NCBI GenBank assembly: GCA_030694975.1
Contig: JAUYTU010000009.1
Span: forward strand, 1 to 59,569
DNA: 59,569 nucleotides
Source of the DNA: Erysipelotrichaceae bacterium
GTDB taxonomy: Bacteria; Bacillota_I; Bacilli_A; Erysipelotrichales; Erysipelotrichaceae
Direction of reading: 5' to 3'
Both the position numbers and the translations under genes were made by a program. Every line of letters begins with the position of its first letter. Within the stretch, counting starts at the first letter, position 1. The notes under the pieces are model-generated. The model ran no database searches. It worked only from the letters and a program-made list of their open reading frames with translations, and was not told the DNA's origin. Shown here in pieces: positions 27,593 to 38,592 of the stretch.

Positions 27593-28525
27593 TTATTTTA
27601 TATGAGAAGCGATTTCGTGCAATTTATTGAATCGATGCTTCATTCCTGACTTACTCATAACTGTACCCGACTGTTCTTCATAAACATCACTCAACTCATT
27701 TAGACTGGCATCAGGATTATCGATTCTTAATAACGCCACTTCTTTGAGTTTTTCTTCCAATGATTCGAAACGTCCAGATTGTTGAATTTTTATGATATCA
27801 TCAATCTGCCGTGATGCCGCTTGTTGTGTCTTAACTTCGTTAGCCACTTCGCAATTATCCAACCGGGTCAATGAATTACGGAAATCACGTTGGATACGAA
27901 TATCCTCAAATTTCATCAATGCATCGATCGCCCCTGTAGCTCTTAAGAAGTCCGAAATCTTATCGGATGCCTTCAGGTAAACAACCTGTTGTTGCCTTCT
28001 TGGTACGACTTTTGCAGGCAGTTCGAAACGATGCATTAATTTACTTATAAATATTGCATGTTTTTCATCATGTGTGGCAATTTCACAATGATAGTTTGTT
28101 TTCGTTGGATTATTGATACTTCCCGAAGCCAAAAATGCTCCGGCCAAATAAGCTCTGGCACAACAATCCTTAGCAACAATCGAACGTGTCGGACGATCCG
28201 ATAATCCCAGCGATGTCCAAAGTCCTACATCTTCCAGAATTTCCTTAACTTTTGCCATAACTTTAATAACATAAACATTGTTCTTTTTAAGTTTCATTTT
28301 TTTAATGATCGAAAGTTCGCACGTTACTTGGTATCGTTCTTTAAGTAAAATCCAAATACGCTTAGCTGTTGTTGGATTTTCAGTTTTGATTATCAGCTGG
28401 TAAGATTGGTTGGAAATAGCCAGCGTAGCATTCAATTGAATCAACGCCGAAAGTTGCGCTCGGGTGCAGCACGGTTTTAATTCATTTTGAGATATTTCCG
28501 ATTTTATTTCTGTGGTAAACGACAT
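27593..28525 (-). CDS. whiA: WhiA family DNA-binding protein
   Basis: A 310-residue protein with an N-terminal LAGLIDADG-like fold (CCARAYLAGAFLASGSINNP, about 120-139) lacking endonuclease function, and a C-terminal helix-turn-helix (about 240-305, ending SGMKHRFNKLHEIA). WhiA controls sporulation in actinomycetes and influences division and nucleoid segregation in Bacillus. It is the last gene of rapZ-yvcK-whiA; AGGAGTGAT overlaps the yvcK stop region. Confidence 0.96.
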   Translation of the reverse strand: MSFTTEIKSEISQNELKPCCTRAQLSALIQLNATLAISNQSYQLIIKTENPTTAKRIWILLKERYQVTCELSIIKKMKLKKNNVYVIKVMAKVKEILEDVGLWTSLGLSDRPTRSIVAKDCCARAYLAGAFLASGSINNPTKTNYHCEIATHDEKHAIFISKLMHRFELPAKVVPRRQQQVVYLKASDKISDFLRATGAIDALMKFEDIRIQRDFRNSLTRLDNCEVANEVKTQQAASRQIDDIIKIQQSGRFESLEEKLKEVALLRIDNPDASLNELSDVYEEQSGTVMSKSGMKHRFNKLHEIASHIK

Positions 28526-28529
28526 TGTA

Positions 28530-29474
28530 TCACTCCTGCGCTAATATACTTGCAATCAAATCTTTGACCCTAAGGGGATCATGGCGTACCAATCCATCCG
28601 AAAAGTCCAACAAACTGCTTAACATGATGGGGTAAGAATGTTCCTTCTGCGCCATTTCGACATTCATACTTCCCATAATTTTATATCGTTCGACAACTTC
28701 CGGAGGCAACGAGTCATTGGCTTTGACGACTAGATCAACCTCGACACCGCAATGTCGAACAATAGCATCCACATGATCTTCCATTGAATAATCATCCGTC
28801 TCCCCCGGTTGGGTCATCGCATTACAAACATATATTTTCTTTGCCTTAGCAACTTTCAAAGCATCCGCAAGATCTTCAATGATCAGATTCGGACAAATAC
28901 TCGTATATAAGCTCCCCACCCCGTAAATGATTAAGTCCGCTGACTTGATGGCATCAATGGCTTGCCGGGAAGCTCGAACTTTTTCTTGATAGAATACGCG
29001 ATTGATCCGATTGCCTGTTTTAGGTATGTTCGACTCTCCACGAACGATGGTTCCGTCAACCATTTCCGCAAATAGTGTGATTACTTGCAATGTTGAAGGA
29101 ATGATATCCCCTTTTACATTGAGTACTTTGGAAATCGCTGTTATGGCTTCCATAAAATTACCGCTTCGATCGGTAAGTGCTGTCAATATCAGATTCCCAA
29201 GATTATGTCCGTATATTTCATTTTCAGGAGAACCTTCAAATCGATATTCCATTAATGTTGATAACATGGTCTCTGATTCAGCCATTGAAATCATAACGTT
29301 ACGAATATCACCCATGGCAGGAATATGAAAAGCCCGGCGTAATCTTCCGGTTGACCCTCCATCATCCGCAACCGTTACAATTGCCGTCAAGTGAATATTC
29401 TGTAATAATTTCAAACCCCTTAGCAATGTAGCCTGACCGGTGCCCCCACCCATAACGACAACTTTCTTAATCAT
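28530..29474 (-). CDS. yvcK: YvcK/CofD-like gluconeogenesis factor
   Basis: A 314-residue protein of the YvcK family, with the nucleotide-sugar-binding start VVMGGGTGQATLLRGL (6-21) and the conserved DDGGSTGRLRR segment (about 37-47). YvcK binds UDP-GlcNAc and is needed for normal wall synthesis and growth on gluconeogenic carbon in Bacillus. Its start overlaps the rapZ stop by four bases (ATGA), giving translational coupling. Confidence 0.95.
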   Translation of the reverse strand: MIKKVVVMGGGTGQATLLRGLKLLQNIHLTAIVTVADDGGSTGRLRRAFHIPAMGDIRNVMISMAESETMLSTLMEYRFEGSPENEIYGHNLGNLILTALTDRSGNFMEAITAISKVLNVKGDIIPSTLQVITLFAEMVDGTIVRGESNIPKTGNRINRVFYQEKVRASRQAIDAIKSADLIIYGVGSLYTSICPNLIIEDLADALKVAKAKKIYVCNAMTQPGETDDYSMEDHVDAIVRHCGVEVDLVVKANDSLPPEVVERYKIMGSMNVEMAQKEHSYPIMLSSLLDFSDGLVRHDPLRVKDLIASILAQE

Positions 29475-30328
29475 ATTCGATCCTTTTTATCCCTGTGATT
29501 CTTAAAACTCTTATACTTCTCTCTGTAATGTTCAAACAACCAATTCGTAATAGCCACCGAACGATGCTGACCACCCGTACAGCCAATACCGACGGTAAAA
29601 TGATTTTTGCCTTCTTTGACATATTCTTCAAAGGCATAGTCCAAGAAATCTGTTAATTTCTTTAAGAAGATCTGCGTTTGCTCTTCGACCATGACATAAT
29701 CATATACTTCTTTGTCATCTCCGCTCAAACCGCGAAGTTCTTCAACCCAATGGGGATTTTTTAAAAAGCGGACATCAAACAATAGATCTGCATCCATCGG
29801 CACACCATTTTTATAGCCAAACGAAATAAAACTAATGGTAAATACCGGTTGTGTTGAGAAAGCAAATACTTTCTCCAATTTCAGTTTTAATTCGTTGTGT
29901 TTTAAAAATGTGGTATCCACCGTGTAATAGGCACGCTCTTTCATGCCGGTAAACATCTCACGTTCAATTTGGATCGCTTCTTCTAAGGTACTTGCCATAT
30001 TTGAAATCAACATCGGATGCGTCCTTCGGGTAAATTTGTATCGTAAAAGCAACTCTTCATCCGATGCTTCCAAAAACAATACTCTTACATCGGCATCGAC
30101 ATTCTCAAAACGCATCAAAAACAAAGGGAAGTCCATGGCGCTGGTCGCTAAGGCCAGGTAATCCAATCGCGGATCTTCTTCTTTGTTGATGAGCTTTAAT
30201 AACGATCCAATGAGTTGGGGAGGATATTGGTCAATGGCATGATAGCCCATATCCTCCAGTATGCCCATGGCCGATGTTTTACCTGCACCAGACATACCTG
30301 TAACCAAGATGACTCTTTTATTTTTCAT
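29471..30328 (-). CDS. rapZ: RNase adapter / nucleotide-binding protein RapZ (YvcJ)
   Basis: A 285-residue P-loop protein: Walker A VTGMSGAGKTSA (9-20) and the late GIGCTGGQHRSV signature near residue 250. In E. coli RapZ senses GlcN6P and delivers a small RNA to RNase E; in Gram-positives (YvcJ) the role is less clear but is linked to competence. It is the first gene of the rapZ-yvcK-whiA operon; GAGG precedes the ATG. Confidence 0.95.
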   Translation of the reverse strand: MKNKRVILVTGMSGAGKTSAMGILEDMGYHAIDQYPPQLIGSLLKLINKEEDPRLDYLALATSAMDFPLFLMRFENVDADVRVLFLEASDEELLLRYKFTRRTHPMLISNMASTLEEAIQIEREMFTGMKERAYYTVDTTFLKHNELKLKLEKVFAFSTQPVFTISFISFGYKNGVPMDADLLFDVRFLKNPHWVEELRGLSGDDKEVYDYVMVEEQTQIFLKKLTDFLDYAFEEYVKEGKNHFTVGIGCTGGQHRSVAITNWLFEHYREKYKSFKNHRDKKDRI

Positions 30329-30375: not shown

Positions 30376-31305
30376 TTAGTGGCTTAATTCTTGGATATAA
30401 TGGAAAATCATCTGTGCTGCAACAGCGCCATCACCAACCGCCGTTACGATTTGACGTAAGTTCTTCGAACAGACATCGCCCGCCCCATAGACACCCGGCA
30501 CTGTTGTTTCCATTTTTTCATTAACGATCAGATATCCTTCCGGGTCTGTAACATGCAAATGTGCAACAGCTTGTGTTGCCGGAGTTGATCCTATATACGG
30601 AAAAACCGCTGAAGTAGGGTAAGACTTCTTTTCTTTTGTATCCACATTGGTTAAAACGATTCCCGAAATCTTCCCATCTTCTTCTTGATATGAAGCAGGA
30701 ATACTCTTGGTAATGATCTCGATTTTAGGATGTTTATTAACCAAATCCTGAATATGCGGTTCTCCACGGAAAACATCGCGACGGATAACTATACGAACAT
30801 GAGATGCAAACTGCGTTAGATACAGCGCTTCTTCTAACGCTGAGTTTCCGCCACCGATGACTGTAACGACCTTTTCCTTATAGAAAGCCCCATCACACAC
30901 TGCACAATACGATATTCCACGTCCGGTCAGACGTTCTTCGTTCTCTAAACCAAGTTTTTTCTCAACGGTTCCGGTAGCAAGAATGACCGCATAGGCCGTA
31001 TAGACATTGCCATCATCACAAATTACTTTGCGAATTTTACCGTCAACTTCTACACGCATGACTCGACCGTAATTGTACTCACAACCATATTCTGTGGAGT
31101 GTTCAAACATTTGCATTGCCAAATCTACACCGGCTACGCTTTTCATTCCCGGCCAGTTACTGATTTCAAAGGTTTTGACAAGTTTGCCACCCGGTGCTTC
31201 CGGTTCAAGCATCATCGCTTTCAAACCGGCGCGTGAAGCATAAACGGCTGCTGTCATTCCGGCTGGACCTGCACCTATGATAATTACATCGTACTGTACG
31301 TCCAT
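30376..31305 (-). CDS. trxB: Thioredoxin reductase
   Basis: An FAD/NADPH flavoenzyme that reduces thioredoxin, 309 residues. The FAD motif is GAGPAGMTAA (11-20), the redox pair CAVC (134-137), the NADPH motif VIGGGNSALEEA (about 149-160), and the C-terminal FAD block GVYGAGDVC. It overlaps the lgt-phosphatase fusion by 22 bases, with AAGGAGGAT inside that gene. It ends the uvrA-hprK-lgt-trxB run. Confidence 0.97.
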   Translation of the reverse strand: MDVQYDVIIIGAGPAGMTAAVYASRAGLKAMMLEPEAPGGKLVKTFEISNWPGMKSVAGVDLAMQMFEHSTEYGCEYNYGRVMRVEVDGKIRKVICDDGNVYTAYAVILATGTVEKKLGLENEERLTGRGISYCAVCDGAFYKEKVVTVIGGGNSALEEALYLTQFASHVRIVIRRDVFRGEPHIQDLVNKHPKIEIITKSIPASYQEEDGKISGIVLTNVDTKEKKSYPTSAVFPYIGSTPATQAVAHLHVTDPEGYLIVNEKMETTVPGVYGAGDVCSKNLRQIVTAVGDGAVAAQMIFHYIQELSH

Positions 31306-32738
31306 TCGACATCCTCCTTCAACACGTCATTGATTTCACTTAACGAAGAAATCAAACGCGTGGGTTTCATTTTCTCTAACAATTCCTTGCGTTCTTGATC
31401 TGTCGCAAACGCAATAGTAAACATTCCGGCATTGATTCCCGCCAATACATCGCCTGTGGTGTCCCCAACGTAAATCACGGAATCATGACCTTTTCCAAGT
31501 TTTTTGCATGCCTCAAATAATCCTTCCGGATCTGGTTTGTGTTTCTTCACTTGCTCAAGCCCGATGATTACCTCAAAGTAATCTTTCATATCGAACATGT
31601 TCAGGCCCAAGTCAATGGCATCTGTCAGTTTGCTTGAAACGATTCCAAGCTGATAACCATTTTCTTTCAATTCACTTAATAATTCTTTGGCTCCATCAAT
31701 CGGATTGACATGTGTTTTATGCATTTCGAAATTGATCGTCCGGTAATCTTCAACCAATTTGTCAGCTGACTCATTGGGTAAATACTTTTCAAACGTTTCC
31801 CATAAGGTCGGTCCTAAGAAGGATAATTCCATTTCCCGGGTAATAATCATATCCGGCGCATATTTATTAAAGACTTGCTTAAAACTTTCGATAATAGCAG
31901 GTTCGGTATCCATCAGTGTCCCATCAAAATCAAAGAGGATGATAGGTTTCTCTCTTTTCATCAATTTTCTAAAAAGTCCTAACGTACCTAAGACTCCCAC
32001 TAGAATAAAGGCAATGGATACTAATTGTGCGGAGCGCAATCCCATGAACATCAGACTGTCTGCGCGCAACCCTTCAATAAAGAAGCGTATGACACCATAC
32101 CACATCAAATAAGCGTAAATCATATCGCCTCGTTTAGGTTTAGAGAATTTCTTCAAAACAAATGTTATGAGCAAAAATCCGACAATATTTAGTACACTTT
32201 CATATAAGAAGGTCGGTTCACGGAACTGTCCGGCAATAAACATTTGATCTTTAATCAGTTGTGGCCAACCGCTGTAAAAAGATTCTTGAACAACGCGGCC
32301 ATACGCTTCTTGATTTAAGAAGTTACCCCACCGTCCAATCGCTTGCGCGACCAAAATGTTGGGTACGATGGCATCCGCAACTCGAATAAAATCGATCTTT
32401 TTACGCTTGACAAACCAAAGGCCAAACAATACTCCGCCAAATAATCCGCCTTGAATCGCTAGTCCGCCTTGCCAAGTCATAAAGATTTCCAAGGGACGGG
32501 CAAGGTAGTAGTTTAGGTCAAAGAAAACCACAAACCATAAACGGGCTCCGATAACACCGCATAGCAATGCGCCAAAAAACAGGTCATCAGTCAAATCTGA
32601 TTTGTACCCCATTTTCTTTAAATTACGATAGCTTAAATAATAGGCCAAATAGGCTCCCACTAAAATGAGAACAGCATACCACTTGATGGAAATCGGCCCA
32701 ATATCCAAAAAGGTTTGTAAATCTGGAAAAAATTTCAT
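31284..32738 (-). CDS. lgt: Fusion: prolipoprotein diacylglyceryl transferase + HAD phosphatase (PpaX-like)
   Basis: One continuous 484-residue frame. Residues 1 to ~257 are Lgt: seven membrane helices, the signature GRWGNFLNQEAYG (135-147) and HxGG-like GGLAIQGG (91-98). Lgt lipid-modifies prolipoproteins. Residues ~264-484 are a HAD phosphatase: DFDGT (270-274), an SSK motif II (368-370), KHKPDP (399-404) and GDTTGD (425-430). It resembles PpaX, the pyrophosphatase that in Bacillus follows lgt and hprK. No stop or frameshift lies at the junction. The phosphatase would sit on the cytoplasmic side of the membrane. The pyrophosphatase activity is inferred from context. Confidence 0.93.
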   Translation of the reverse strand: MKFFPDLQTFLDIGPISIKWYAVLILVGAYLAYYLSYRNLKKMGYKSDLTDDLFFGALLCGVIGARLWFVVFFDLNYYLARPLEIFMTWQGGLAIQGGLFGGVLFGLWFVKRKKIDFIRVADAIVPNILVAQAIGRWGNFLNQEAYGRVVQESFYSGWPQLIKDQMFIAGQFREPTFLYESVLNIVGFLLITFVLKKFSKPKRGDMIYAYLMWYGVIRFFIEGLRADSLMFMGLRSAQLVSIAFILVGVLGTLGLFRKLMKREKPIILFDFDGTLMDTEPAIIESFKQVFNKYAPDMIITREMELSFLGPTLWETFEKYLPNESADKLVEDYRTINFEMHKTHVNPIDGAKELLSELKENGYQLGIVSSKLTDAIDLGLNMFDMKDYFEVIIGLEQVKKHKPDPEGLFEACKKLGKGHDSVIYVGDTTGDVLAGINAGMFTIAFATDQERKELLEKMKPTRLISSLSEINDVLKEDVEWTYSTM

Positions 32739-32748
32739 AGTTCCTCCG

Positions 32749-33699
32749 TTATTTCTTATTTAATTCATTTTGACGTTCAATGTAATCGAATACCCGACGA
32801 TCAAAATCACTGCCAGCATCAAAGCCTTTATCTTTTAGCGTAAAATCGGTAACGGCAGCTTCGATCAATATTGCCAAGTTTCTGCCTTCTTTTACTGGGA
32901 ATAATAACTGTGGAACCTCAATGTCCAACATCGTCATCACTTTATTTAATTCAATCCCAACTCGCTTATAGTCTTTTGAATCATCCCATTTTTCTAAGTA
33001 TACTACAAAATCGATTCGGGTACTGTCAAGCATTGCCGAAGCGCCAAACATCCGTGCAACATCGATGATCCCAATTCCACGCAGTTCCAACAATCCTTTT
33101 AGCAGTTCAGGAGCATAACCGATGACGGTGTTATGAACACGTCGGATATCGACCCGATCATCTGAGACTAAGACATGCCCTTTACGAATAAGTTCCAATG
33201 CTGTCTCCGATTTACCCATTCCGCTTTCACCGGTAATGAGAACGCCCTTGCCGAATACACTGATTAAGACACCGTGTATATTGTCGGTTGGCGAGAGATG
33301 TTCATCCAGAAACCCGATGATATCGACCATCAGCCGATAGGTCTTTTGTTCAGATGTGAAAATCGGAAAGTTCTTGTATGCCGCAATTTCATTTAAGATC
33401 GGCGGACATTGATAGTGACGGGCTATAATAATAGCGGGTGTCCAACCATCGGTAAGACGGTCAAATACATAACGTTGTTGTTCTTCGGATATCGTTTCGA
33501 TATACGCCATTTCTTTGTCACCCATAATGACGATTCTTCGTGGTTCCGTGTGTTCAAAAAATCCGGTTAATTCTAGACCTGGACGGTTAATATCAGGGAC
33601 AACGACCCAGCGGTCTAAAGATTCGTCATTACCCGTGATTTGTTCAAATCGGAAATAATTCTTTACTTCCCGCATGGAGCATTTTGCTTCAAAGCTCAC
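32749..33699 (-). CDS. hprK: HPr kinase/phosphorylase
   Basis: Phosphorylates HPr at Ser46 in response to glycolytic signals, and dephosphorylates it by phosphorolysis that releases pyrophosphate. Length 316; Walker A GESGMGKSE (157-165) and the family signature LRGIGIIDV (206-214). The start is GTG with AAGGAGGGG, two bases after the uvrA stop. The neighbouring HAD domain fused to Lgt could remove the pyrophosphate. HPr itself and PTS genes are not in the window. Confidence 0.97.
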   Translation of the reverse strand: MSFEAKCSMREVKNYFRFEQITGNDESLDRWVVVPDINRPGLELTGFFEHTEPRRIVIMGDKEMAYIETISEEQQRYVFDRLTDGWTPAIIIARHYQCPPILNEIAAYKNFPIFTSEQKTYRLMVDIIGFLDEHLSPTDNIHGVLISVFGKGVLITGESGMGKSETALELIRKGHVLVSDDRVDIRRVHNTVIGYAPELLKGLLELRGIGIIDVARMFGASAMLDSTRIDFVVYLEKWDDSKDYKRVGIELNKVMTMLDIEVPQLLFPVKEGRNLAILIEAAVTDFTLKDKGFDAGSDFDRRVFDYIERQNELNKK

Positions 33700-33701
33700 A
33701 G

Positions 33702-36533
33702 TTACCCCTCCTTTTTATGGAATAGTCTGTTAAGATACTGCCCGGTATAACTGGTTGGATGCTCGGCTACTTGTTCCGGTGTTCCGGTGCACAAAATCAT
33801 TCCGCCTTCATCGCCGCCTTCGGGTCCGATATCTATAATAACATCTGCTGATTTAATAATATCAAGATTATGCTCAATAACAATGACTGTATCTCCGTTT
33901 TCGACGATTCTCTGTAATACTTTGAGCAATTTAGCGACATCATGACTGTGCAGTCCGGTCGTTGGTTCATCAAGAATGAAAACGGTCTTACCGGTGGCAC
34001 GACGTTGAAGTTCGCTCGCCAGTTTAACGCGCTGTGCTTCTCCACCGGAAAGCGTCGTGGCAGGCTGACCAAGTTTGATGTATCCCAAACCGACATCCAT
34101 CAGCGTTTGTAAGCGATGTTTGATTTTATGAACATTGGTGAAAAACTCAATCGCATCTTCCACACTCATCTCCAGAACTTCGTAAATATTCTTACCTTTA
34201 TACGTTACTTGTAACGTTTCTTCATTGTATCGTTTGCCTTCGCACTCTTCGCAAGGAACAAATACATCCGGTAAAAAGTGCATGGAAATCCGTTTGACAC
34301 CATCCCCTTGGCATAATTCACAACGTCCGCCACGAACATTGAAGGAGAAACGTCCCTTTAGAAATCCTCTGACCTTCGCTTCGGGTGTAAGTGCGAATAA
34401 ATCACGGATATCATCGAAAATCCCTGTATAAGTAACCGGATTGGAACGCGGTGTGCGACCGATCGGGTCCTGATCTATCTCGATTACCTTATCGATGTAT
34501 TTAAGTCCGACAACCTTTTCGACCAATCCGGGCTTTACTTTCGCTCTGCCCAAATGATGTTGTAAGGTTTTACATAGGACTTCGTTGACCAACGATGATT
34601 TACCGCTGCCACTGACACCAGTGACCGCAATAAACGTGTTGAGCGGAAACTCAACCGTTACATTTTTCAGGTTATTTTCTCTGGCTCCGATAACTTTCAG
34701 TATCTGGCCATTGCCTTTACTGCGTACCGTAGGGATAGGAATGAACATCTTACCGGATAAATACTGCCCGGTAATCGAATCGGGATTATTCTTAACTTCC
34801 TCTGGTGTTCCATTGGCAATGACTTCACCCCCGTGCTCACCTGCTCCAGGTCCGATATCGACAATCCAATCCGATGCCATCATGGTTTCTTCATCGTGCT
34901 CGACAACAATCAATGAGTTCCCTAGATCGCGCATATTTTTCAATGTACGGATAAGTTTGGCATTATCACGTTGATGAAGTCCGATGGATGGTTCATCGAG
35001 AACATAGAGAACACCGGTCAAGTGTGAGCCGATTTGAGTAGCCAAACGAATTCGTTGGGCTTCCCCACCGGACAAACTACCGGCAATCCGATCCAATGTC
35101 AAGTATTCCAAACCAACATCTTTGAGGAACTCTAAACGTTCGCGGATTTCTTTAAGTACCAAGCGTGCGATTTCAGTTTGCATTTGACCCAATTGTAACT
35201 GATCCATATATAGTAATGCATTTTTGACGGACATTTGTGTCCATTCATTAATATTCTTGATACCGACATGCACACATAAAGCCATCTCATTCAGTCGATA
35301 GCCATTGCATGTTTCACAAGTAGATTCAGACATAAAACTTGCATACCATTCCCGTGACATCTGTGAGGTTGTTTCCATAAAGCGTCGTTCAATCAGCGTC
35401 GCCACACCCTCAATATAGTCTTTTCGAGAAAAGGTGTTTCCGGAGCGTGAAGAGATACTGTAAGCGATTCGCTCTTTGGAACCGTGCAACAGAATATTCA
35501 ACTCTTTTTCAGTCAGATTTTTGATAGGTGTGCGCATATCAATATTATATTGTTCGCACAACGTTTTAAATACTTGCCATTCGATATTCTCGCTTCCGGC
35601 GATGTTTTTATAGTAAGCAATACCCCCTTGGCGGATCGATTTGTTTCGATCGGGAATCAGATAGTCGACATCGACTTTCTGAGTGACCCCTAACCCTTTA
35701 CATGTCTCACACGCTCCTAAAGGAGAGTTGAACGAAAATAAGCGGGGTTCTAGTCGAGAAACAACAAAACCGCACTCTTTGCAAGCGTAGCGCTGTGAAA
35801 ACAGGATTTCCTGTTCAGATGTTGAGACTATAGCCAAACCATCTGCCAATCGGAGCGCCGTTTCCAATGAATCATGCAGACGGGTCTTGTTTTCATCGGT
35901 TTTAATGATTCGATCAACTAGGACATCGACATCATGTTTTTTGTTTTTCTCTAATACGATATCTTCTTCGAGCATGTGGATGTCACCATTAACCCGAACC
36001 CTAACAAATCCTTCTTTTAAAAGTTTTTCGAAGAGGTCTTTGTGCGTTCCTTTTTGTTGGCGCAATACCGGAGCGAGAATTTGAATTCGCGATTGATCCT
36101 CAAGTTCAGATATCCGTTCCATCATTTGCTTGATCGTCTGAGATTGAATGGGCGTGTGATGTGTTGGACAATACGGTGTGCCGATACGCGCATATAGCAA
36201 ACGTAGATAATCATAGATTTCGGTTACCGTCCCAACGGTCGAACGGGGATTATTGCTTGTGGTTTTTTGGTCGATGGAGATAGCCGGAGACAGTCCTTCA
36301 ATAAGATCAACATCCGGTTTTTCGGTATTACCTAAAAACTGACGTGCATAAGCACTCAGTGATTCTACGTATCTGCGTTGACCTTCCGCGTAAATCGTAT
36401 CGAAGGCCAACGAAGTTTTTCCAGACCCTGAAAGTCCGGTCATAATGACTAATTTGTTGCGTGGGATATCTAAATCAATATTTTTTAAGTTATTGACTCG
36501 CGCTCCTTTAATATGTATGACATCTTGTTTCAT
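33702..36533 (-). CDS. uvrA: Excinuclease ABC subunit A
   Basis: The damage-recognition ATPase of nucleotide excision repair, 943 residues with two ABC modules: Walker A GLSGSGKTSLAF (34-45) and GVSGSGKSSLV (~640), and two ABC signatures LSGGEAQRI and LSGGEAQRV. Zinc cysteine clusters CETCKGLG and CELCQGDG...CEECEGKRY are intact. It is the first gene of the uvrA-hprK-lgt-trxB run. No SOS (LexA) box is seen upstream. Confidence 0.98.
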   Translation of the reverse strand: MKQDVIHIKGARVNNLKNIDLDIPRNKLVIMTGLSGSGKTSLAFDTIYAEGQRRYVESLSAYARQFLGNTEKPDVDLIEGLSPAISIDQKTTSNNPRSTVGTVTEIYDYLRLLYARIGTPYCPTHHTPIQSQTIKQMMERISELEDQSRIQILAPVLRQQKGTHKDLFEKLLKEGFVRVRVNGDIHMLEEDIVLEKNKKHDVDVLVDRIIKTDENKTRLHDSLETALRLADGLAIVSTSEQEILFSQRYACKECGFVVSRLEPRLFSFNSPLGACETCKGLGVTQKVDVDYLIPDRNKSIRQGGIAYYKNIAGSENIEWQVFKTLCEQYNIDMRTPIKNLTEKELNILLHGSKERIAYSISSRSGNTFSRKDYIEGVATLIERRFMETTSQMSREWYASFMSESTCETCNGYRLNEMALCVHVGIKNINEWTQMSVKNALLYMDQLQLGQMQTEIARLVLKEIRERLEFLKDVGLEYLTLDRIAGSLSGGEAQRIRLATQIGSHLTGVLYVLDEPSIGLHQRDNAKLIRTLKNMRDLGNSLIVVEHDEETMMASDWIVDIGPGAGEHGGEVIANGTPEEVKNNPDSITGQYLSGKMFIPIPTVRSKGNGQILKVIGARENNLKNVTVEFPLNTFIAVTGVSGSGKSSLVNEVLCKTLQHHLGRAKVKPGLVEKVVGLKYIDKVIEIDQDPIGRTPRSNPVTYTGIFDDIRDLFALTPEAKVRGFLKGRFSFNVRGGRCELCQGDGVKRISMHFLPDVFVPCEECEGKRYNEETLQVTYKGKNIYEVLEMSVEDAIEFFTNVHKIKHRLQTLMDVGLGYIKLGQPATTLSGGEAQRVKLASELQRRATGKTVFILDEPTTGLHSHDVAKLLKVLQRIVENGDTVIVIEHNLDIIKSADVIIDIGPEGGDEGGMILCTGTPEQVAEHPTSYTGQYLNRLFHKKEG

Positions 36534-36615: not shown

Positions 36616-38592
36616 TTACTCAGCTTTCATTTCGATGATGATATCGCGTAGCTCGGCTGCCCGTTCAAAATCAAGAACACGAGCGGCTTCGTGCATTTCT
36701 TTTTCCAACTGACGAATGACTTCATCTTTTTCTTTTTTACCAACCTTACCTTTTTTCTTTAGCAGCCGAGCCGTCATTTCCTGGGTTTCTTTTCCGCGAA
36801 TTGAATCACGGATTTCCTTGACGATCGTTTTCGGAGTAACGTTGTTGTCAATATTATACTGCTCTTGCACAGTGCGTCTACGATTGGTTTCGTTGATTGC
36901 ATTGATCATCGAGTCAGTCATACGGTCAGCATATAAGATGACCTTCCCATCCGAGTTGCGTGCTGCCCGACCGATGGTTTGAATCAATGAGCGCGTTGAA
37001 CGAAGAAATCCTTCCTTATCCGCATCCAAAATCGCTACCAACGATACTTCCGGCAAATCCAATCCTTCTCTTAAAAGGTTGATTCCGACCAGTACATCGT
37101 ACTTCCCTTTACGCAAATCGCGTATGATGTCAATGCGTTCAAGCGTCTTGGTTTCATGATGTAAATAAGCTACATTTAAGTTCAATTTCTTCAGATATCC
37201 GGTCAGTTCTTCCGCCATTTTGACGGTCAATGTGGTGATTAACACCCGTTGGTTTTTGGCCATGCGCAATTTGATTTGGTCGACGATGTCATCGATTTGA
37301 CCGCGTGACGGTTTGACTTCGATTTGCGGATCTAGCAGTCCGGTCGGGCGAATGATTTGTTCGACGATTTCCCCGTTGGTTAACTGAGTTTCATAATCAC
37401 CGGGAGTTGCGGATACGAAAATCGTTTGCGGTGTCAATTTTTCAAATTCTGCAAATTTCAGGGGTCGGTTATCGAGTGCTGAAGGCAAGCGGAATCCAAA
37501 CTCTACAAGAACTTCTTTGCGAGCTCGGTCACCGTTATACATGCCTTTAACTTGAGGGATACTGGCATGAGACTCATCCACCACAAACAAAAAATCTTTA
37601 GGAAAGAAGTCGAAAATAGTAAAGGGTCGCTGTCCTTCTGCTCGGCCATCGATATGACGGGAGTAGTTTTCTATGCCCGGACAAAATCCAAATTCGCGCA
37701 AGGCTTCCAAATCATAACGGGTCCGTTGTTCCAGGCGTTGCTTTTCAAGAAGCTTACCTTCTTTCTCAAACTCTATCAGTCGCTCCCTTAGCTCGGCTTC
37801 GATATCATTGCATGCCCTCAAGATATGTTCTTTATTGCGTGCATATTCATTGGCGGGGAAGATGTGATATAAGGAATAAGCGTTGATAATCTTGCCGGTA
37901 ATGGGATCAACTTCTGTGATGCGTTCGATTTCGTTGTCAAACATTTCAATACGCAGAATGAATGCATCGGTATAACCCAAGCAGATCTCGATTACATCGC
38001 CTCGAACCCGAAAGGTTCCACGCGTTTGTTCGATGTCATTGCGTTGATACTGGCGCTCCACAAGTGTGTGTAACAGCTGTTGGCGATCAATGGTTTCTTC
38101 GACTCGAAGGGTAAAGAACATGTCGCGATATAATTCCGGATCGCTGGATGCGTAGATACAGGCGACAGAAGCGACGACGATCGTGTCTCTGCGTTGAAGG
38201 ATACTGTTAATCGAGGATAAGCGCAACATATCCAATTCTGCATTGATCATCGCACTTTTTTCAATGTATGTATCGGTTCTTGGCATATAGGCTTCTGGTT
38301 GATAGTAGTCAAAGTTTGACACAAAATACTCTACCCGATTGTTTGGGAAGAGTTCTTTGAATTCTGAATATAGCTGTCCGGCCAGTGTTTTGTTATGTAC
38401 CAAGACCAAGGTGGGCCGATTGACTCGTGCAATTACCTGGGACACGGTAAAAGTCTTACCGGTTCCGGTAGCACCTAAGAGGACTTGGGCTTTTTTATTT
38501 TGATTTAATCCTTCTACCAGTTGTTCAATCGCTTTGGGTTGGTCCCCTTTGGGATCAAAAGTGGAGACCAGTTGAAAGCTTTGGTCATTCAT
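36616..38592 (-). CDS. uvrB: Excinuclease ABC subunit B
   Basis: The helicase-like damage-verification subunit, 658 residues. Walker A GATGTGKT (about 40-47), the beta-hairpin region YYQPEAYMP (about 95), DESHASIPQ (Walker B area), and the C-terminal UVR motif [19 protein letters not shown] (about 631-649) that binds UvrC. Its start overlaps the end of the S41 protease by eight bases, so the two are one transcription unit. Confidence 0.98.

Follow-up and report, generated by a model that had tools for sequence, protein, structure and literature searches.

A fused lgt–HAD phosphatase gene beside hprK and separate losses of its two halves in related bacteria

The closest described gene arrangement is the ptsK(hprK)-lgt cluster, for which the passages found in Comas et al. 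(2008; PMC2405797) report an association with uvrAB and trxB in Firmicutes and Mollicutes. YvoE/PpaX of B. subtilis is given as a pyrophosphatase of the hprK operon (Mijakovic 2002, as cited in PMC2937029). For E. coli Lgt, residues R143, N146, E151, G154, Y235, R239, E243 and R246 belong to the signature or to a buried hydrogen-bond network, H103 of the HGGL motif is critical, the active site opens to the periplasm, and glycerol-1-phosphate (G1P), the leaving group, is proposed to exit on the periplasmic side (PMC4728403).

The locus described here lies in a window of 59,569 nucleotides (the whole stretch of DNA analysed; GenBank accession number JAUYTU010000009.1, from an Erysipelotrichaceae bacterium). 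Like the ptsK(hprK)-lgt clusters, it combines hprK-lgt with uvrA/uvrB and trxB, but lgt is fused to a gene for a HAD phosphatase, an arrangement that is unmentioned in the passages found in Comas et al. (PMC2405797). The literature searched, also for lgt, hprK and ppaX in combination, yielded no description of an lgt-HAD fusion. Most genera of a single family, which includes gut-type as well as environmental bacteria, have a lipoprotein-biogenesis enzyme joined to a predicted cytosolic phosphatase. Annotation under the single name Lgt would mask the phosphatase half. The preferred reading, with a probability of about 0.72, is that the product is a true two-enzyme membrane protein, made by fusion of operon neighbours, in which each enzyme acts independently of the other.

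The fused gene and its neighbourhood

The initial annotation had placed lgt and a PpaX-like HAD in a single frame at 31284-32738, and these coordinates were found to be right. The minus strand there carries a single uninterrupted frame (484 aa), stops are numerous on the plus strand (ORF list and translation), and both domains are complete by Pfam, NCBIfam and AlphaFold2. The features of the gene are as follows.

31284..32738, minus strand: lgt::HAD fusion gene, 484 aa (single open frame; Pfam LGT and HAD_2; AlphaFold2 pLDDT 91.0, pTM 0.84)
31989..32711, minus strand: Lgt domain, residues 10-250, seven TM helices (Pfam LGT 240.5 bits; TIGR00544 226.9 bits; Foldseek top match 5AZB)
32451..32453, minus strand: Q96 at the position of E. 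coli Lgt H103, HGGL to QGGL (alignment to 5AZB, residue table)
32298..32336, minus strand: Lgt signature GRWGNFLNQEAYG, residues 135-147 (5AZB alignment, residue table, 41 homologues)
31947..31982, minus strand: junction, TM7 end and short basic linker, residues 253-264, LGLFRKLMKREK region (AlphaFold2; internal-start scan)
31410..31940, minus strand: HAD domain, PpaX-like, residues 267-443 (Pfam HAD_2; NCBIfam PpaX 181.9 bits, under the cut-off)
31923-31931, 31635-31637, 31536-31538 and 31449-31463, minus strand: HAD catalytic residues D270/D272, S368, K401 and D426-D430, respectively

Pfam matched LGT to residues 10-250 (E 2e-71) and HAD_2 to residues 267-443 (E 8e-53) of the 484-aa product. 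In the AlphaFold2 model, built with 41 fused homologues, seven long helices that resemble those of E. coli Lgt are followed by a short helix of five residues and, from residue 266 on, by a HAD fold. At the junction, helix 236-252 is followed by a strand from 266, leaving a basic linker of ~10 residues between TM7 and the first HAD strand. The best Foldseek matches to the model were 5AZB (E. coli Lgt) and HAD phosphatases. Seven helices, an outside N-terminus and the basic linker after TM7 together predict that the HAD half is located in the cytosol. An internal translation start giving a free HAD product was unsupported, as none of 73 fused genes had an ATG for a separate HAD start preceded by a Shine-Dalgarno match of at least 5 bases.

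Equivalents of E. coli R143, N146, E151, G154, Y235, R239, E243 and R246 are all present in the Lgt half (residue table), and G135, R136, G138, N139, F140, N142, E144 and G147 of the Lgt signature GRxGNFxNxExxG are invariant in 41 homologues. Membership of the Lgt family is shown by this signature, by the conserved Y235, R239, E243 and R246, and by the score against the TIGR00544 lgt profile (226.9 bits, cut-off 118.9). The earlier statement that all Lgt signatures are present holds for these residues but not for the His of HGGL (H103), which is Q96 here. However, this position is occupied by H, Q, L, I, M or V across Lgts of the class, free Lgts included, and Q is found in most of the window's family (f1) and in the free Lgts of its sister family f2. 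The position is therefore not diagnostic, and Q96 is no argument for a dead Lgt. Compared with E. coli Lgt (TIGR00544; 5AZB), the fold, seven TM helices, signature motif and R143/R239 network are the same, and the differences are the added C-terminal HAD domain and the Q. The fused Lgt is the only one found in the window's genome, where LspA is also present, which is consistent with, though no proof of, diacylglyceryl transfer.

The HAD half has the features of HAD_2 (PF13419), namely the DxDGT nucleophile/acid pair, the Ser/Thr, the Lys, GDxxxD and a score above the profile cut-off, and the motif residues D270, D272, S368, K401, D426 and D430 are all found, with little or no variation among the 41 fused homologues. 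The best NCBIfam match was the PpaX pyrophosphatase model (NF009804) with 181.9 bits, followed by phosphoglycolate phosphatase with 91 bits. PpaX was the top-scoring HAD model for every HAD tried, with 113-146 bits in HADs of f8 and g7, and free relatives in f2, f13 and f7 pass its cut-off. As 181.9 bits is below the cut-off of 218, the half is named PpaX-like; the type proposed by the initial annotation therefore stands, and PpaX proper would be too strong. In comparison with PpaX/YvoE of the Bacillus hprK-lgt-ppaX cluster, the HAD type, the best-scoring model and the place between lgt and trxB are the same, but here the domain is the tail of Lgt rather than a free soluble protein, its score is under the cut-off, and its activity is assigned by homology. 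It shares a HAD fold with helical cap with phosphoglycolate phosphatases (2nyv, 2yy6) and a Bacteroides thetaiotaomicron pyrophosphatase (3qxg series), though identity is low (about 20-26%) and those are free proteins.

Pyrophosphate (PPi) appears to be the likeliest substrate, favoured by profile ranking and the operon, and the sub-cut-off PpaX score together with the persistence of HAD in genomes without HprK may leave room for a Gph-like role. The HAD could accordingly be a general house-cleaning phosphatase of the PpaX/Gph group, acting on phosphoglycolate and other small phosphates and carried on Lgt by an accident of gene order, which differs from the preferred reading only in the substrate. 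The scores under the cut-off (181.9 against 218, and 113-146 bits in f8 and g7), the retention of HAD without HprK and the mostly Gph-like solved structural neighbours all point this way; however, the PpaX model scores far above the phosphoglycolate models (182 against 91 bits) and comes first in every HAD tried, making this alternative possible but the less probable choice. The window's genome also encodes a family II PPase (DHHA2) and a membrane H+-PPase, and the former is present in 23 of 23 f1 genomes tested. The HAD half is thus ruled out as sole pyrophosphatase, and general PPi clearance is independent of it.

On the minus strand the gene order is uvrB, uvrA, hprK, lgt::HAD, trxB, rapZ, yvcK, whiA, with the following coordinates for the neighbours.

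36616..38592, minus strand: uvrB-like (ORF, named by sequence; same-placed homologue in f2 loci)
33702..36533, minus strand: uvrA-like, upstream of hprK (ORF, named by sequence; same-placed homologues in relatives)
32749..33699, minus strand: hprK, HPr kinase/phosphorylase, 10 nt upstream of the fusion (TIGR00679 336.9 bits, cut-off 240)
31284..31305, minus strand: 22-nt overlap of the fusion 3' end and the trxB start, encoding the conserved tail WTYSTM (ORF coordinates)
30376..31305, minus strand: trxB, thioredoxin reductase (TIGR01292 345.4 bits)
27593..30328, minus strand: rapZ, yvcK and whiA (NCBIfam PRK05416, TIGR01826 and TIGR00647)

The hprK gene is found directly upstream of the fusion nearly throughout f1. 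Free lgt and HAD genes occur in the order hprK, lgt, HAD, trxB in f13, f7, f9, f11 and f2, indicating that the fusion preserves the ancestral order, as had been proposed from the Bacillus gene order. The final 22 nt of the fusion overlap the beginning of trxB, and this explains the conserved tail WTYSTM; the overlap also accounts for the tail motif WTxxxM without its being a functional element of HAD. As a separate observation, WTxxxM is kept in g7, though trxB no longer adjoins there.

Range and origin of the fusion

Other fused forms and their taxonomic range, which the initial annotation had left to a database search, were found to extend well beyond the window. The fusion is present in about 175 of 272 genomes and in 48 of 59 genera of f1 (match to the fused protein, E 1e-100 or better), a figure counted from the listed genomes and including a few matches that end at contig ends. 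Several of these genomes are complete or single-contig and were independently assembled. Fusions were also found elsewhere in the class, in f21 (all seen), part of f11, two f8 genera and two f6 genera, and in the sister family f2 lgt and HAD are separate genes. This range covers one class, and the phylum-level search returned the same class only. The recurrence in about 175 genomes, several of them complete, and the conserved junction region rule out chance and a frameshift, and leave a negligible probability that a sequencing or assembly artefact joined two genes.

A maximum likelihood tree of 126 Lgt domains requires 10 changes between fused and free states, at least 8 of them on well supported branches, and the HAD tree likewise requires 10, both trees coming from quick searches with SH-aLRT support only. 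The fusion is old and is therefore recurrent as well, having arisen several times from neighbouring genes that are often overlapping. Linkers differ among fused clades, and genus g85 contains two species with the fusion and one without. In the window's genus, dN/dS is 0.02-0.05 for the Lgt half and 0.04-0.08 for the HAD half; both halves are under strong purifying selection.

Two nearly complete f1 genomes (G136 and G140) gave no match to Lgt, HprK or LspA, and may be masked, misplaced or very unusual.

Relatives with a dead or missing Lgt half

The relatives form a natural dissection series of fused proteins, dead-Lgt anchors, free HADs and dead HADs, which separates the function of the domains from the fusion. 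In g7 (about 70 genomes, the loci read being a sample), g17 and g35, the Lgt half is without most of the signature and the TM6 catalytic residues, and all HAD residues are intact.

L150, L153, L154, L159, L163, L164, L165, L072 and L074 (g7), L161 (g17) and L162 (g35): dead Lgt half as a seven-TM relic before an intact HAD, directly behind hprK
L147, L148, L149, L151, L152 and L155-L158 (g7; nine loci read): Lgt half deleted, free HAD of 213-221 aa overlapping or abutting the hprK stop

An AlphaFold2 model of one g7 protein (pLDDT 82) keeps the seven helices, and the periplasmic region between TM4 and TM5 is missing; alignment of this model to structures gave matches on the HAD side only, and is silent on the pseudo-Lgt fold. 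In three of four pairs compared the Lgt half evolves faster, with dN/dS of 0.13-0.23 against 0.05-0.11 for the HAD half, and the fourth pair gave 0.15 and 0.20, respectively. In g2 (L073:4917-6146) a HAD is fused to a hydrophobic N-terminal stretch of ~187 aa that is unrecognised by Pfam. This is probably a further decayed Lgt, the HAD of g35 (L162) being the closest relative of that in g2. In the tree, the free HADs of g7 fall within the fused ones and therefore derive from the fusion through deletion of the Lgt half, showing that a gene fusion can be undone.

A second stand-alone Lgt-like protein is encoded elsewhere in nearly all genomes of the group with a dead or lost Lgt half. In the 16 read (L096-L111), GRxGCFxAGCCYG replaces GRxGNFxNxExxG and the TM6 residues are kept, and this 'CCYG' protein may serve as the functional Lgt in genomes whose fused copy is dead. 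LspA was kept in 68 of 73 genomes tested, and together with the second Lgt this rules out that loss of Lgt in g7 reflects loss of lipoproteins. As the HAD is kept on a dead Lgt relic, or free, after the second Lgt appears, it needs neither Lgt nor the membrane.

Selection for the membrane address itself would be another way to read the repeated origin of the fusion, with the dead seven-helix Lgt of g7, g17 and g35 retained to anchor the HAD once lipoprotein modification had passed to another Lgt, but this was considered rather doubtful. For the reading of two independent enzymes it is nevertheless a caveat that the g7 pseudo-Lgt keeps seven TM helices under some constraint (dN/dS 0.13-0.23), so that an anchor may still be of use in that genus. 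A benefit beyond co-expression could likewise lie behind the repeated fusion and its long persistence in 48 genera.

Dephosphorylation by the HAD of G1P, the by-product and leaving group of Lgt (PMC4728403), with the fusion coupling the reaction to disposal of its product, would account for the repeated fusion to Lgt and for the presence of HAD without HprK, and the nearest solved structures are HAD phosphatases annotated for small phosphate esters. However, G1P is proposed to exit on the periplasmic side (PMC4728403) and the HAD is predicted to be cytosolic. Moreover, the HAD outlasts the death or loss of the fused Lgt, and Lgt outlasts the death of the HAD, and this explanation is thus very improbable.

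HAD decay, HprK absence and the question of coupling

Three genera (g47, g50 and g57) have an intact Lgt half followed by a HAD remnant that is missing the nucleophile.

L083/L095 (g47), L093 (g50) and L092 (g57): decayed HAD half of about 95-120 aa, no catalytic residues

HprK scores above the profile cut-off in all three genera despite the decay of HAD. At these loci the frame still extends to the conserved tail, and that of L093 overlaps trxB, perhaps being kept for translational coupling.

HprK is missing in each of the 30 f8 genomes, in the majority of those from f6 and in two from f11, a result from draft assemblies that are 88-100% complete, some being closed. A HAD beside or fused to Lgt was nonetheless found in 24 of the 29 f8 loci read, and also in f6 and f11/g169. 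Among the HprK-less genomes of the tree set, HAD is kept in 22 of 27 from f8, 5 of 6 from f6 and 2 of 2 from f11, absence of HAD meaning absence at the lgt locus and not from the genome. In 65 non-f1 genomes, the presence of HAD and HprK showed no association (HprK-less, 29 with and 9 without HAD; HprK-bearing, 24 with and 3 without; Fisher p 0.33), though there are only 5 independent pairs, too few for a tree-based test. HAD does not follow HprK as expected for an HprK-dependent module, as 29 HprK-less genomes keep HAD and 6 genomes with HprK in the tree set are without it.

The initial annotation had suggested that the fusion ties PPi removal to the membrane, and so perhaps to the PTS or lipoprotein machinery, and the comparison gave this no support. 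In its most specific form, a membrane-anchored pyrophosphatase would dispose of the PPi that HprK produces, linking PPi removal to PTS signalling. The position of hprK directly upstream nearly everywhere in f1, the g7 HAD that abuts or overlaps hprK once Lgt is lost, the rank of PpaX as best HAD model for every HAD tried, and the assignment of B. subtilis YvoE/PpaX as hprK-operon pyrophosphatase (Mijakovic 2002, as cited in PMC2937029) would all suit such a role. However, the HAD sits on a dead relic in some g7 species and the anchor is gone in many others, HAD persists in the HprK-less genomes of f8, f6 and f11 at the frequencies given above, it is lost beside HprK in g47, g50 and g57, and two other PPases are present, making this role unlikely. 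No line of evidence requires that PPi removal be coupled to the membrane or to HprK, as Lgt decay, Lgt loss, HAD decay and HprK absence each bypass it. A weaker link between HAD and HprK is possible, since HAD stays directly behind hprK after Lgt loss. The locus is a warning that a fusion and an operon neighbourhood alone are no proof of functional coupling.

The reading of two independent enzymes starts from the observed architecture, conservation, selection and independent loss of each half. Two adjacent genes of an ancestral uvrBA-hprK-lgt-ppaX-trxB cluster would have fused, and did so several times because lgt and HAD genes are adjacent and often overlap. By homology, the Lgt half with its seven TM helices would move diacylglyceryl from phosphatidylglycerol to prolipoproteins at the outer side of the membrane, and the HAD half, predicted to hang from the cytoplasmic end of TM7 via the ~10-residue linker, would act in the cytosol as a PpaX-like phosphatase. 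We infer catalysis, topology, substrate and lack of coupling: the two active sites would be separated by the membrane, one on each side, and function independently, and the fusion would give one-to-one production and a membrane address, with neither activity requiring it.

The Lgts of f8 (L080, L082, L087 and L112-L141), from genomes with no HprK, are extended at the N-terminus by a further hydrophobic stretch (about 140-190 aa), and the residue aligned with H103 is mostly L, I, M or V. An HprK-like domain was considered for this extension and rejected, as the stretch had no Pfam match and looks like extra TM helices.
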